Positions 15,252-53,672 of a stretch of DNA of 64,000 nt are shown in pieces; position 1 is the stretch's first letter, and the number at the start of each line of letters is the position of its first letter. Made by a program: the position numbers and the translations under genes. Source of the stretch: Butyricicoccus faecihominis (GTDB lineage Bacteria; Bacillota; Clostridia; Oscillospirales; Butyricicoccaceae). The notes under the pieces were generated by a model. That model saw only the letters and a list, made by a program, of their open reading frames with translations. It made no database searches and was not told where the DNA came from. Location of the stretch: contig NZ_JANGCE010000003.1 of NCBI RefSeq assembly GCF_024462775.1, forward strand, positions 124,001 to 188,000. The letters are read 5' to 3'.

Positions 15252-16808
15252 TTACTCGTGCTTCAAGCCCATCAGCTCATCCTTGAAGATGCGCTCGTCC
15301 ATGGTCTTCAGATCGTCGGCGATCTTGGGGACGAACTCCATCTGGTCGAGGATCTGGGTTTTCAGATCGATGCCGGGCGCGATTTCTACCAGCGTGACGC
15401 CTTCATGGCGCAGCTCGAACACGCAGCGCTCGGTGATGTACAGAACGGGCTGGTGCACCTTGTTGGCGTAATCGCCGGAGAAGGTGATGTGCTCGACCGA
15501 ATTAACAAACTTCTTCTTCGCGCCCTCCTGCGTGATGACGAGCTTGCCGTCGACACAGTCGGTCTTGAGGCCCTTGGCCGTGAAGGTACCGCAGTAAACG
15601 ACCTTCTTGGCGTTTTGGGTGATATCGATGAAGCCGCCGGCGCCGGCCAGACGGGTGCCAAACTTGGAAACGTTCAGGTCGCCGTTGGGCGCGGTCTCCG
15701 CAAGGCCGAGGAACGCAACGTCAAGGCCGCCGCCCTGATAGAAGTCGAACTGTACGTTGTGCGGGATGATGCACATCGCGTTCGCCGCGGCGCCGAACTG
15801 GGTGCCGCCGTAGGGAACGCCCGCGATGGAGCCAGCCTCCACGGTCAGCGTCATGTTATCGGAAATGCCTTCTTCCGCGGCGACGTTGGCGATCTTTTCA
15901 GGCGCGCCGGTGCCGAGGTTGACGATCGCGTCCTTGGGCAGCTCCATGGCGGCGCGGCGGGCGATGATCTTCTTCGCGTCCATCGGGATGGGCGGAATCG
16001 CGTCCACGGGGATGCGGAACTCGCCGGTCAGCGCGCCGTCATACGGCATGCCGAGGCACTGCATGTTCTCTTCGTCCGAACCGACGACGACGGAATCGAC
16101 GTAGATGCCGGGAATCGCCACGAGCTTGGGATCGAGCGTGCCGCCCTGCACGATCTTTTCGACCTGCACGATGACCTTGCCGCCCGAGTTCTTGCACGCC
16201 TGCGCCATCGCGGTGACGTCCAGCGGGCCGATCTCTCTATGTACGGTGCAGTTGCCGTATTCGTCGCAGTAGGAGCCGCGCAGGAACACGACGTTGATCG
16301 GGAAGCCCTTGTACAGCAGGCGCTCCTCGCCCTCGATGTTGACGATCTTGACGAGGTCCTCGGTGGTGCAGTCGTTGAGCTTGCCGCCGCCGTTGCGGGG
16401 ATCGGCAAAGGTGTACAGGCCGACGTGGGTGATGGTGCCGATGTTGTGGGCGGCGATATCGCGGTACATGTGCGAGATAACGCCCTGCGGCAGGTTGTAG
16501 GCTTCGATCTTGTTCGCAAGCGCCAGATCGCCCAGCTTGGGCGCGCGGTCCCAGTGGCCGCCGATGACGCGCTTTACCATGCCCTCATGGCCGTAGTGGT
16601 CGCCGCCGGTGCCGTCGCGGTGGCCCTGACCGGCCGCAAAGAACAGGGTCAGGTTGCTGGGGTGTCCGGTCTCCAAAAAGCGCTTTTCCAGCGCGCCGGA
16701 GAGGGCCTCCGGGCAGGCGCAGCTTACAAAGCCGCCGGTGGCGATGGTATCGCCGTCCTGTACCTTCAGGGCGGCTTCCTCCGCTGTGATGATGCTTACT
16801 TTCTTCAT
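15252..16808 (-). CDS. Acyl-CoA:acetate/3-ketoacid CoA-transferase (fused alpha-beta)
   Basis: A 518-residue class I CoA-transferase with both halves fused, as in propionate CoA-transferase. The catalytic Glu324 sits in TLTVEAGSIAGVPYGG, and the N-terminal GGFVSCACPEAL segment is typical. In this operon, after 4-hydroxybutyryl-CoA dehydratase, it probably activates 4-hydroxybutyrate or moves CoA between short acids; the exact pair cannot be read from sequence. AGGAGG lies nine bases from ATG 16808. An ATG at 16817 overlaps the previous stop (ATGA) and could be used by coupling. Confidence 0.88.
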   Translation of the reverse strand: MKKVSIITAEEAALKVQDGDTIATGGFVSCACPEALSGALEKRFLETGHPSNLTLFFAAGQGHRDGTGGDHYGHEGMVKRVIGGHWDRAPKLGDLALANKIEAYNLPQGVISHMYRDIAAHNIGTITHVGLYTFADPRNGGGKLNDCTTEDLVKIVNIEGEERLLYKGFPINVVFLRGSYCDEYGNCTVHREIGPLDVTAMAQACKNSGGKVIVQVEKIVQGGTLDPKLVAIPGIYVDSVVVGSDEENMQCLGMPYDGALTGEFRIPVDAIPPIPMDAKKIIARRAAMELPKDAIVNLGTGAPEKIANVAAEEGISDNMTLTVEAGSIAGVPYGGTQFGAAANAMCIIPHNVQFDFYQGGGLDVAFLGLAETAPNGDLNVSKFGTRLAGAGGFIDITQNAKKVVYCGTFTAKGLKTDCVDGKLVITQEGAKKKFVNSVEHITFSGDYANKVHQPVLYITERCVFELRHEGVTLVEIAPGIDLKTQILDQMEFVPKIADDLKTMDERIFKDELMGLKHE

Positions 16809-38302: not shown

Positions 38303-39355
38303 ATGGGGAAGAGACCGACGATCCTAATGGTTGCCGAGCGCGCGGGCGTATCGCGCGGCACGGTGGATCGGGTGATTAACGGCCGCGCTTATGTGCGCGG
38401 CGACGTGCGGGAACGGGTGATGCAGGCCATGCGGGAGGTCGGCTATGTGCCGCTGCGCATGGATAAGGCGCAGGCGCTTGGCATGGTGCCCGCGGCAAGA
38501 CCGCTGACGCTGGGCGTGCTGCTGCCCGATTGGAGCGGCCACTTTTTAAAAGAGGTGACCATGGGCATCGAGGAAGCGCGCCGCCTGCTCGCGGATTTCG
38601 GCGTGCGCATTCTGGTGGACCAGTGCGAGACCGAAATACCGGACGAATGCTTGGAAAAGCTCGACAAGCTGCTCGCCGCGGGCGCGGAGGGCGTGGCCCT
38701 GTGCACCAAGGACCACCCGGCTATCCGCGCGCGAATCGACGAGCTGGCCGAACGCGGCGTGCCGGTCGTCACCTTCAATTCCGACGTGCCGATCAGCCGC
38801 CGGGTGTGCTTTGTCGGGCAGGATGTGCCGCGCAGCGGCAGAGTCGCGGGCGAATTGATGAGCAAATGCGTGCCGCCCGGCAGCCGGGTGCTGGCCGCCG
38901 TGGGCAATTTGGAGTTTGACGGACACAAGCAGCGGCTGATGGGCTTTTTGGACCAGATGGAAGAGCGCGGCTTTGCCCGTGAACAGATCGAGGTTGTGCA
39001 GACCTATAATGATTTTGCCATGAGCTATGAGCGCGTGCGCGGCGCGCTGCGCCGCCTGCCCGATATCGCGGGCGTTTACATGGCCAACCATTCGGTAACC
39101 GGCTGCGCCGAAGCCATCCGGGAGGAAGGGCGGCAGGGGCAGATTCGCGTGGTCAGCCACGATGTGACGGGCGGTTCGCGCCGCCTGCTGCGCGACGGCG
39201 CGCTGGATTTTGTCATCGCGCAGGATCTGCGGCGGCAGGGCTACCGCCCGCTGACGCTTTTGTACGACCTGCTGCGCCGCGAGGAACAGCCGGGCGAGCT
39301 GAGCGAATCGCCGAGCCTGCGCATCGTATGCTCGCAGAATCTGGATGATAATTGA
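38303..39355 (+). CDS. LacI-family transcriptional regulator
   Basis: A 350-residue regulator. The N-terminal helix-turn-helix (TILMVAERAGVSRGTVDRVINGRAYV) is followed by a periplasmic-binding-protein-like effector domain of the Peripla_BP_4 class (LTLGVLLPDWSGHFLKEVTMGIEEA). It lies next to the inositol-like operon at 39930 and probably controls it or the related transcripts. A -10 TATACT at 38268-38273 precedes it. Confidence 0.88.
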   Translation: MGKRPTILMVAERAGVSRGTVDRVINGRAYVRGDVRERVMQAMREVGYVPLRMDKAQALGMVPAARPLTLGVLLPDWSGHFLKEVTMGIEEARRLLADFGVRILVDQCETEIPDECLEKLDKLLAAGAEGVALCTKDHPAIRARIDELAERGVPVVTFNSDVPISRRVCFVGQDVPRSGRVAGELMSKCVPPGSRVLAAVGNLEFDGHKQRLMGFLDQMEERGFAREQIEVVQTYNDFAMSYERVRGALRRLPDIAGVYMANHSVTGCAEAIREEGRQGQIRVVSHDVTGGSRRLLRDGALDFVIAQDLRRQGYRPLTLLYDLLRREEQPGELSESPSLRIVCSQNLDDN

Positions 39356-39512: not shown

Positions 39513-39578
39513 TCATATAATCGACGCTATTGCACAATCAGCCAAAAAAGTGGCCGCCGGTTTGTGCGAAATAAAGTA

Positions 39579-39607
39579 TTGACAAATCGTGTGTGCGAAA
39601 ATATAAT
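39579..39607 (+). promoter_or_regulatory. Consensus promoter of the hairpin-array leader
   Basis: TTGACA (39579-39584), 17 bases, TATAAT (39602-39607): perfect sigma-A consensus. The sequence TGTGCGAAA occurs at 39563-39571 and again at 39593-39601, bracketing the -35; these could be operator half-sites. Predicted transcription start is about 39614, giving a leader of about 315 nt. Confidence 0.8.
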
Positions 39608-39624
39608 AAAGATGCAAAAGCACA

Positions 39625-39818
39625 GAAGGGCGAATGACCGAGCATTCGTCTTTCAAGGGAACGGATGAACGCGCGCTTTCGCCCACCGCCGACAGGGAAT
39701 GACCGAGCATTTCCGAACCGGCGCGCGGCGCGGGCAAGCGGAGATCCGCCGGTTCGGAAGAACGGATGACCGAGCATCCGCACGGACGAAGGGCAGGTTT
39801 GACCGAGCAAACCGGCCC
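39625..39818 (+). ncRNA. Leader RNA with four hairpins sharing the loop TGACCGAGCA
   Basis: Four stem-loops in the untranslated leader carry the same eight-base loop GACCGAGC closed by T-A. Stems: GAAGGGCGAAT (39625-39654), GGGAAT (39695-39714), CGGAT (39763-39780), and GGGC-A-GGTTT (39791-39818), each paired to its own complement. Stem sequences differ while loop and closing pair are invariant, which points to selection on an RNA fold. A degenerate fifth site (GAACGGATGAACGCGC) lies at 39658-39674. Known RNA families with this loop are not familiar to me. Confidence 0.75.
39713..39757 (+). other. Long hairpin inside the leader
   Basis: CCGAACCGGCG pairs with CGCCGGTTCGG, with an inner GCGGAGATCCGC, between the second and third GACCGAGC hairpins. 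It is the strongest single fold in the leader and separates the array into two halves. Confidence 0.6.
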
Positions 39819-39929
39819 CCCATCCGGCAGGTGCTCGTGCATTTTCCCTTTATGGAGGAAAACCAATCACCCGGCGATCGCCGCGGCCCAAAGCCGCCCG
39901 GTCCCAACGTCAAAAAGGAGGAAGAACAT

Positions 39930-40715
39930 ATGAAACTCATGCGTTCGGCTTGCATCGAACCGATGTACTCTGAAATCCCCTTCCTTGATCGTTTTCAGGC
40001 GGCCAAGGACGACGGCTTTGAATTTGTTGAGTTTTGGAGCTGGACCGACAAGGACCTTGACGCGGTCAAGGCCGCGGCTGAAAAGGCGCAGATCGGCATT
40101 TCCGGCTTCAACGGCGACGCGGATTTTTCGCTGATCGACCCCACCCATAAGGAAAAGTACTTAGAATTTTTGAAGCAGTCGGTAGCGGCGGCCAAGAAGA
40201 TCGGCGCGCTGTCCGTTACCATCCACTCCAACGCGCTGGGCGATGGCGGCGTGGTCGTCAACCACTACACCGAACTGTCCGACACCGTCAAGATCTGCTC
40301 CATGTACGACATGCTGCTCGAGTGCGCGAAGATCGCGGAGGAAAGCGGCGTCGCCATGAACCTTGAGCCGCTGAACATCACGACCGACCACGTGGGCAAC
40401 TTCCTCGCGCACACCCAGATGGCCGCCGAGATGACCCGCCTGATCGGCTCCCCCAAGCTGAAGGTGCTGTACGATGTGTACCACATGCAGCTCAACGAAG
40501 GCTCGATCTGCGACACGATCGTAAAGAACGTCGACCAGCTCGGCCACATCCACGTGGCCGACGCGCCGGGCCGCCACGAGCCGGGCACGGGCGAGATCAA
40601 CTACCACAAGGTGTTCGAGTGCCTTGAAAACGCGGGCTACACCGGCAGAGTCGGCTTTGAGCTGTTCCCGCTGACCGATACCAAGACCGCCGCGAAGGCG
40701 ATCATGTCTTACTAA
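39930..40715 (+). CDS. TIM-barrel sugar isomerase/epimerase (hydroxypyruvate isomerase-like)
   Basis: A 261-residue AP-endonuclease-2-fold protein similar to hydroxypyruvate isomerases. Metal ligands are seen in MNLEPLN (Glu), VLYDVYHMQ (Asp/His), HIHVADAPGRHEPGTGEI and VGFELFP (Glu). It probably isomerises a keto-sugar or inosose intermediate. AAAAAGGAGG lies six bases before ATG 39930; an in-frame ATG at 39852 also has no better site. iolG-like gene follows after 63 bases. Confidence 0.85.
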   Translation: MKLMRSACIEPMYSEIPFLDRFQAAKDDGFEFVEFWSWTDKDLDAVKAAAEKAQIGISGFNGDADFSLIDPTHKEKYLEFLKQSVAAAKKIGALSVTIHSNALGDGGVVVNHYTELSDTVKICSMYDMLLECAKIAEESGVAMNLEPLNITTDHVGNFLAHTQMAAEMTRLIGSPKLKVLYDVYHMQLNEGSICDTIVKNVDQLGHIHVADAPGRHEPGTGEINYHKVFECLENAGYTGRVGFELFPLTDTKTAAKAIMSY

Positions 40716-40778: not shown

Positions 40779-41789
40779 ATGAAAGTAGGTATTATCGGTG
40801 CCGGCCGTATCGGCAAGGTGCACGCGAAGAACATATCGATGTTCGTACCTGAGATGGAGATCAAGACGATCGCCGACCCGTTCATGAACGAGGAGACCGA
40901 AAAGTTCGCGAAGCAGTGCGGTATTCCGAATACCACCAAGGACGCGAACGACATCCTGAACGACCCCGAGATCGAAGCCGTTCTCATCTGCTCCTCGACC
41001 GACACGCACTCCAAGTACATCATCGAGGCCGCCCACGCGAAGAAGCACATCTTCTGCGAAAAGCCGGTCGATTATGATCTGAACAAGGTGCACGAGGCGA
41101 TTAACGCCGCGAACGAAGCGGGCGTAAAGCTGCAGATCGGTTTCTGCCGCCGCTTTGACCACAACCACCGCGCCGTGTACGACATGGTACGCGAAGGCAA
41201 GGTAGGCAAGGTCAACATCATCAAGATCTCCTCCCGTGATCCCGAGCCGCCCCCGGTATCCTACGTGAAGGTTTCCGGCGGTATCTTCTATGACATGATG
41301 ATCCATGACTTCGACATGGCGCGCTTTCTGGCGGGCAGCGAGGTCACCGAGGTCAGCGCCATCGGTTCCGTGCTGGTCGATCCCGGCATCGGCGAGGCCG
41401 GCGACGTGGATACCGCGCTCGTCACCCTGAAATTTGAGAACGGCGCCATCGGCGTGATCGACAACAGCCGCAAGGCCGTTTACGGTTACGACCAGCGCGT
41501 CGAGGTGTTCGGCTCCGAGGGCTGCGCCCAGAACGAGAACGACACCCCCAACACCGCTGTTCTGTCCACCGCGGACGGCGCGGTACACGGCGTGGCCTAC
41601 AAGGTCATGTGGGATCGCTACACCGGCGCGTTCGTCGCCGAGATGCAAGCGTTTGCCGACGCGATCGCAAACAACAAGGAGACCCCGGTTACCGGCATCG
41701 ACGGCCTGTACCCGGTGCTGATGGCAGCCGCCGCGACCAAGTCGCTGCATGAGGGCCGCCCGGTCAAGATCTCCGAAGTGGAAGTGTAA
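40779..41789 (+). CDS. iolG: Gfo/Idh/MocA oxidoreductase, inositol 2-dehydrogenase-like
   Basis: A 336-residue NAD-dependent dehydrogenase. Rossmann motif GIIGAGRIGKVHAKN, the EKP motif (FCEKPVDYDL) and the catalytic DxxxH-type segment GGIFYDMMIHDFDMARFL are typical of IolG. It likely oxidises myo-inositol or a similar polyol. It shares the hairpin-array leader with the preceding isomerase and ends at a terminator. Confidence 0.86.
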   Translation: MKVGIIGAGRIGKVHAKNISMFVPEMEIKTIADPFMNEETEKFAKQCGIPNTTKDANDILNDPEIEAVLICSSTDTHSKYIIEAAHAKKHIFCEKPVDYDLNKVHEAINAANEAGVKLQIGFCRRFDHNHRAVYDMVREGKVGKVNIIKISSRDPEPPPVSYVKVSGGIFYDMMIHDFDMARFLAGSEVTEVSAIGSVLVDPGIGEAGDVDTALVTLKFENGAIGVIDNSRKAVYGYDQRVEVFGSEGCAQNENDTPNTAVLSTADGAVHGVAYKVMWDRYTGAFVAEMQAFADAIANNKETPVTGIDGLYPVLMAAAATKSLHEGRPVKISEVEV

Positions 41790-53367: not shown

Positions 53368-53672
53368 AGAACAAAGCAAAACCGCAGAGCAGGAGTAAGT
53401 AAGAACGAAACCGCGCGTTTCAGAGAGCCGCCCGTTTGGTGCGAGGGCAGCCGTGAAGGACGTTCCGAATGGACCTGTGAGGGCAGCCCCAAACCCGTTG
53501 TTTCTTCGGGGAGTAGGCGCTGACGGGGTTCCCGCCGTTACCATGGGAGGGCGCGTGTCGGCGCGTCTGTAGAGCGGGCGTTTTTTATAACGTCAATTTG
53601 GGTGGTACCGCAGAAGTTTCGGCTTTTGTCCCATGATGCAATTTTGCACCATGAGGACGAAGGCTTTTTTTT
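53368..53672 (+). ncRNA. Tryptophan T-box riboswitch
   Basis: The leader contains the T-box GGGTGGTACCGC (53600-53611) for the antiterminator, a stem I with an AGTA-containing segment near 53512, and a specifier-loop UGG (53470-53472, context GAATGGACC) matching tRNA-Trp. A terminator hairpin GCTTTTGTCC / GGACGAAGGC with T8 spans 53622-53672. Uncharged tRNA-Trp would turn on trpEGDCFBA. Confidence 0.95.

Follow-up and report, generated by a model that had tools for sequence, protein, structure and literature searches.

Four hairpins with one hexaloop and differing stems in the leader of a predicted isomerase-dehydrogenase operon of Butyricicoccus faecihominis

Introduction

The closest described systems are the target RNAs of ANTAR proteins, which in the excerpted text of three reports combine short stems with hexaloops carrying A at position 1 and G at position 4 (PMC3369931, PMC8934654, PMC8164766). 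In the available part of the report on the EutV-RNA structure, one hexaloop is proposed as the minimal site, G4 makes the sole base-specific contact, and contacts to the closing pair are backbone-only and independent of sequence (PMC8934654). Extracts from two further studies give a C-G closing pair for NasR by SELEX (PMC7496416) and, for an EutV target, a disruption of induction by a closing-pair change giving UG...CA (PMC3369931). Linkers within ANTAR hairpin pairs are put, in the excerpted accounts, at 5-12 nt in eut and 2-25 nt in an actinobacterial set, and the second hairpin is said there to overlap an intrinsic terminator in about 30% of the 2012 hits. The same loop motif may also be displayed several times over, as in the EutX-type sponge RNA, where, as far as the available text describes it, several hairpins show one loop motif on variable stems (PMC8934654).

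The window analyzed here (a stretch of 64,000 nucleotides, to which all coordinates refer unless a contig or locus is named) contains an operon leader with four hairpins that share one loop. The array is real and unusual, it is unmatched in Rfam, and among the genomes searched it is seen in one species.

Results

Promoter, leader and operon

A preliminary description, made from the DNA letters, had placed the leader between a perfect consensus promoter and an "inositol-like operon". The promoter agrees with the consensus in full, and the operon label, given a TIM-barrel protein followed by a Gfo/Idh/MocA dehydrogenase, is a fair one, although not proven. The first gene is hydroxypyruvate-isomerase-like, as judged by plasmid matches. 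Transcription would start at about 39614, giving a leader of about 316 nt when counted from this putative start site.

38303-39355, plus strand: LacI-family regulator gene upstream of the leader (Pfam LacI and Peripla_BP_4, above cut-off)
39579-39607, plus strand: promoter TTGACA-17-TATAAT, sigma-70 consensus at 12 of 12 bases, 17-nt spacer
39916-39921, plus strand: ribosome-binding site AGGAGG of the first gene, read from the sequence, eight bases 5' of the gene start
39930-40715, plus strand: first gene, TIM-barrel sugar isomerase-like (Pfam AP_endonuc_2)
40779-41789, plus strand: second gene, Gfo/Idh/MocA dehydrogenase (Pfam profile search)

A direct repeat, TGTGCGAAA, lies around the -35 to -10 region at 39563-39571 and 39592-39600, 29 bases apart, and is a possible operator. 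Elsewhere in the window, a T-box leader scores above the gathering score at 53376-53636.

Four hairpins, one hexaloop

The 10-mer TGACCGAGCA is present in exact copies at 39635, 39700, 39767 and 39800 (spacing 65, 67 and 33), within the following hairpins:

39625-39654, plus strand: hairpin 1, 12 pairs, hexaloop ACCGAG at 39637-39642
39695-39714, plus strand: hairpin 2, 7 pairs, hexaloop at 39702-39707
39763-39780, plus strand: hairpin 3, 6 pairs, hexaloop at 39769-39774; mutually exclusive with a helix 39771-39778/39830-39837
39796-39813, plus strand: hairpin 4, 6 pairs, hexaloop at 39802-39807; outer helix 39791-39794/39815-39818

The uninterrupted stems, counted from the loop outward with the inner G-C and U-A included, measure 12, 7, 6 and 6 pairs, and the linkers between successive hairpins 40, 48 and 15 nt (the last is 10 nt if the outer helix of hairpin 4 is counted). 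This confirms, at these coordinates, the earlier claim of four hairpins with one loop and unlike stems in the leader. The loop itself is constant as drawn before, with a change of size: it is a hexaloop (ACCGAG) rather than an octaloop, because the outer G and C of the loop as first drawn pair with each other and are followed by U-A. The element common to all four hairpins, on differing stems, is thus U-G[ACCGAG]C-A. A degenerate fifth site proposed at 39666 (TGAACGCGCG) has three mismatches to the motif and can form two pairs, and it is not supported.

The genome holds 43 exact copies of the 10-mer, of which the 39 outside the array all have stems of 2 to 5 pairs, compared with 6 to 12 for the four array copies. 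With the 10-mers fixed and the flanks generated from a Markov model of leader sequence, the joint probability of stems at least as long as those observed is about 6e-11. The array is the only cluster in the window of at least three hairpins with an identical loop and different stems, and such clusters arose in simulation at a mean of 0.1 per strand (10 simulated sequences). The fold of the leader has a z-score of -4.79, none of 100 shuffles being equally stable. The stems were also compared in a covariation table of five rows, namely the four hairpins and hairpin 1 of another genome of the same species; since the rows were picked for forming hairpins, the statistic describes rather than tests. 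In these chosen rows 30 of 30 stem cells are paired, with two-sided changes in 5 cells; the covariation score was reached by none of 500 shuffles, and the observed three pairs with two-sided changes were matched by 28 of 500.

Distribution in the species and its relatives

One other genome of the same species keeps all four loops. It differs at five leader positions, three of which (39627, 39647 and 39649) fall in hairpin 1 and each keep a standard pair, while the change at 39715 breaks one pair of an alternative 14-bp helix (see below) and that at 39761 falls in a linker; loops and closing pairs are unchanged between the two genomes. Of 87 family genomes, two have the exact pattern of two copies 30-60 nt apart, and both belong to this species; of 391 sampled genomes of the class, only the window's own has it. 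The pattern was not found in the remaining 85 genomes of the family and 390 of the class. At the level of the genus, 2 of 25 genomes carry the array.

An orthologue of the first gene is present in 39 of the 87 family genomes, counting this species. No ACCGAG hairpin was found upstream of the orthologous gene at any of 28 loci from other species of the family (six of them, L054, L058, L068, L069, L074 and L075, are truncated at contig ends and were scanned over their whole length). The preliminary description had named loop-less leaders in close relatives as evidence against its reading, and these 28 loci go part of the way in that direction: they indicate that the array is restricted to the species rather than widespread. 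A model built from the array hairpins (R1) matches each same-species genome four times. Among 394 sampled genomes of the order it matched 48 at E <= 0.05 (20 first-look candidates were scored in each), and none of the 394 apart from these two had more than three matches. No second ACCGAG hairpin was present in the 28 loci read among the R1 matches outside the species; several of these matches contain ATGACCGAGCAT and may be coding.

Within the own genome, R1 found nothing further at E <0.5 (150 of 1029 first-look candidates scored), and none of 12 other places with paired TGANNGNNCA has hairpins of at least 6 pairs at both copies. A scan of genome contigs for two exact copies 14-44 nt apart returned at least 118 stretches. 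Among the 80 examined, a locus of an actinobacterial MAG (L104) has two copies with at least 5 pairs, and was rejected as a plain direct repeat on account of its identical flanks; no other locus among the 80 has two such copies. All 14 stretches from viral contigs lack two hairpins of at least 6 pairs, and the 20 listed of 89 plasmid matches begin only at query base 862, inside the gene. No Rfam 15 covariance model matched the leader at gathering score (the best weak match, at E = 0.1, is far below cut-off), and no report of the array was found in the open-licence PMC literature.

Among the genomes searched, the array is a species-level feature, which counts against an old, widespread RNA family. 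Of the earlier proposal that an RNA-binding protein or a small RNA recognizes several copies of the motif, one part is well supported: that something recognizes the constant loop on variable stems.

Likeness to ANTAR target RNAs

The preliminary description knew of no named family with this loop. The hexaloop reading qualifies this by bringing out the ANTAR signature: the terminal loops are hexanucleotides in all four hairpins, as in ANTAR target RNA, and A1 and G4 are present in 4 of 4 (ACCGAG). For a single loop type, A1 and G4 together have a chance of 1 in 16, which weakens the likeness. The closing pair is G-C in 4 of 4, and not the C-G of the NasR SELEX and of EutV.

Four ANTAR proteins of the genome score over the cut-off, all encoded on contigs other than that of the window, and there is no ANTAR gene within the window. 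The same-species genome with the array has three ANTAR proteins; as it lacks a counterpart of one of the four and still carries the array, that one is not required. Three ANTAR genes are each directly followed by a HisKA_2 kinase, in loci that, by gene names given from sequence, we take to be sugar-transport-like, and the fourth lies in what is presumably a glutamate-synthase/glutamine-synthetase-like operon. The kinases (HisKA_2, HATPase_c; L043 6039-7925, L044 7474-9312 and L046 8016-9875, minus strand), each after a receiver-ANTAR gene, have N-termini matching ABC_tran, the ABC-transporter ATPase (2 of 3 over the Pfam cut-off). In an alignment of one ANTAR protein with EutV, a lysine stands at the position of K143, and the residues at R168, M172 and R175 differ (numbering worked out by hand).

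Pairs of A1/G4 hexaloops within about 10 kb of the ANTAR genes are few and weak. The leaders beside two ANTAR-kinase loci contain no A1/G4 hexaloop with a good stem, and Rfam gives one weak, unrelated match there. A motif, AAAAGTGNATAGA, has two sites in the genome (C4:5906-5918 and C11:52369-52381, both minus strand; L253, L254), each in a leader just downstream of an ANTAR-kinase pair, and is a possible site of those systems.

Three nitrogen leaders of the own genome, on contig C53, share a different hexaloop, cggac[AAAGGC]gtccg, acagc[AAAGGC]gctgt and tacac[AAAGGC]gtgta, each closed by C-G. They serve as a positive control, and precede genes that we take to be a glt-like operon, a glutamine synthetase gene and an ammonium transporter gene. 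In locus L045 (C53:22500-42400), beside the operon with an ANTAR gene, they lie at:

15490-15507, minus strand: nitrogen hexaloop
15707-15724, plus strand: nitrogen hexaloop
17941-17958, plus strand: nitrogen hexaloop

Each overlaps the 5' arm of an apparent intrinsic terminator (only the first was folded). A model of the three hairpins (R2) matches at E <= 0.05 in 22 of 25 genus genomes, with about one chance match expected overall; a match on C16 was rejected as lying inside an ORF. In 29 further loci of the genus we counted 43 AAAGGC hairpins of at least 5 pairs, with a limited set of stems, and for 11 of the 43 a run of five T lies within 130 nt by a crude test, so that the terminator reading, as judged from sequence, applies to the three own-genome leaders only. 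In one locus (L286 1388-1540, genome G002) a transporter-like gene is preceded by a pair of AAAGGC hairpins on unlike stems, 107 nt from one another, with a U-run after the second; this is another case of a single leader that presents one loop on two stems. The hexaloop attenuators of the genus thus keep the whole loop constant on differing stems, as the array does.

A leader with several binding sites for an ANTAR-type regulator is, in our judgment, the most likely reading, held at somewhat below an even chance. The A1/G4 hexaloop in all four hairpins, the ANTAR proteins in the genome, the shared grammar of the nitrogen leaders and the constancy of the loop here, set against 39 copies elsewhere of which none forms such a hairpin, support it; the G-C closing pair, the lack of a terminator, of an ANTAR gene in the window and of conservation in relatives argue against it, as do the ANTAR-kinase leaders without a similar hexaloop and the chance level of A1/G4. 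The reversed closing pair, the four copies and the missing terminator misfit the described ANTAR pattern, and together with the absence of an adjacent candidate gene they would suit a non-ANTAR RNA-binding protein that binds several copies in cis, as CsrA and TRAP do on other RNAs. The defining feature of a CsrA target is GGA in the loop; ACCGAG lacks it, and the usual CsrA site is thereby excluded. A non-ANTAR protein we regard as unlikely, though a serious contender: no other candidate protein was found, and the hexaloop, A1 and G4 would have to be coincidence.

Competing helices and the remaining alternatives

The leader contains two elements that compete with the hairpins:

39710-39723/39747-39760, plus strand: 14-bp inverted repeat overlapping the 3' arm of hairpin 2
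39830-39837, plus strand: GGTGCTCG, able to form 8-9 pairs, G-U included, with the loop and 3' arm of hairpins 1-3

GGTGCTCG pairs over 8 bp with CGAGCATC (39771-39778) of hairpin 3, and in the minimum-energy fold this helix replaces the hairpin. The predicted pair probability is 0.0 for hairpin 3 and 0.98 to 1.0 for hairpins 1, 2 and 4; forcing hairpin 3 is predicted to cost 5.7 kcal/mol. The complement of the loop noted previously, TGCTCG, is indeed present (39832-39837, inside GGTGCTCG), and since the minimum-energy fold uses the helix containing it, it is more likely an arm of this alternative 8-bp helix, which excludes hairpin 3, than part of the pseudoknot then proposed. Neither the 14-bp repeat nor the 39771-39778/39830-39837 helix is followed by a U-run, and no terminator-like site was found on the plus strand within the leader. 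A hairpin-binding factor could switch hairpin 3, but the predicted fold already leaves the ribosome site of the first gene almost unpaired, with three weak pairs, and points to no output step.

The same helix bears on the proposal that recognition is by RNA, the loops pairing with a CUCGGU-containing small RNA or competing for GGTGCTCG in the leader. The 8-9 bases that GGTGCTCG can pair with hairpins 1-3, and its pairing with the hairpin 3 sequence in the predicted fold, favor it. A complement of six bases within about 120 nt is nevertheless expected by chance in roughly 3% of cases (a rough estimate), and the GGTGCTCG partner is unchanged in the same-species genome, hence offers no compensatory change; we consider pairing of this kind improbable. 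The genome search with the 10-mer covered both strands, and pairing may need fewer than 10 bases.

It is quite improbable that the repeat acts at the level of translation, with ATGACCGAGCAT (Met-Thr-Glu-His) in hairpins 1-3 starting short leader peptides. Three of the four copies have an ATG, and a predicted open frame of 55 codons (39766-39933) runs from that of hairpin 3 to the gene start, where it meets the first gene in an ATGA overlap; hairpin 4, however, has TTG, the copies stand in different frames, and the stems pair in all rows, which a coding repeat would not require. Least probable of all is a chance or decaying, functionless relic of a local repeat, which would fit an occurrence in one species (2 of 87 family genomes) but not differing stems that pair throughout (in rows chosen as hairpins), loops intact in both genomes against five other differing positions (a weak point with only five differences), or a place between a 12/12 promoter and a gene.

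Discussion

Returning to the ANTAR-type reading, we propose that the leader RNA acts in cis and offers four equivalent U-G[ACCGAG]C-A sites to a single RNA-binding regulator, which would most likely be a protein of the ANTAR type that reads A1 and G4. Once bound, it would keep the hairpins, hairpin 3 in particular, from giving way to the 39771-39778/39830-39837 helix and to the 14-bp repeat over hairpin 2, and the stabilized hairpins would alter elongation or translation of the isomerase-dehydrogenase operon, the several sites serving cooperative or graded binding. The sequence itself shows the hairpins, their constant loop, stems that differ and yet all pair, the promoter and gene on either side, and ANTAR proteins elsewhere in the genome; which protein binds, in what direction and at what step it controls the operon, and the cooperative or graded role of the sites are what we infer. 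We suggest, tentatively and with more doubt than belief, a leader type in which four identical loops are read cooperatively by a single regulator of new specificity, U-G[ACCGAG]C-A, this being either a terminator-free ANTAR class or a protein for which RNA binding is not yet known.

Should an ANTAR protein bind the loops, the leader would stand among ANTAR leaders as one that has four separate hexaloops, closes them with reversed pairs and lacks a terminator, and it would test both the specificity determinants of ANTAR beyond A1 and G4 and the proposal of a single-hexaloop minimal site, as the available text of PMC8934654 presents it. If none does, the leader would be a sign of a hitherto undescribed regulator that reads loops. 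In both cases, a single RNA provides one loop on four naturally varying stems.

Among known systems, CsrB-type sponge RNAs likewise carry several hairpins with one loop motif on variable stems; unlike these and the EutX-type sponges, the array is an operon leader, has no terminator before the gene and has a loop without GGA. The nitrogen attenuators of the same genome resemble it in their constant A1/G4 hexaloop, differing stems and position behind a promoter, and differ from it in having one site per leader, overlap with a terminator and C-G closing; they are kept across the genus (22 of 25 by R2 matches), whereas the array is present in 2 of 25. ANTAR target RNAs (EutV, NasR, AmiR) share with it the short stems, the A1/G4 hexaloops and the position between promoter and gene. 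The array has four hairpins instead of one pair, linkers of 40, 48 and 15 nt, a G-C closing pair, no overlapping terminator and no adjacent ANTAR gene. As two reported ANTAR features, the C:G closing pair and the terminator overlap, are lacking, we do not claim membership among the ANTAR RNAs; judged by analogy, the leader may well work like an ANTAR-bound leader without being filed as one.
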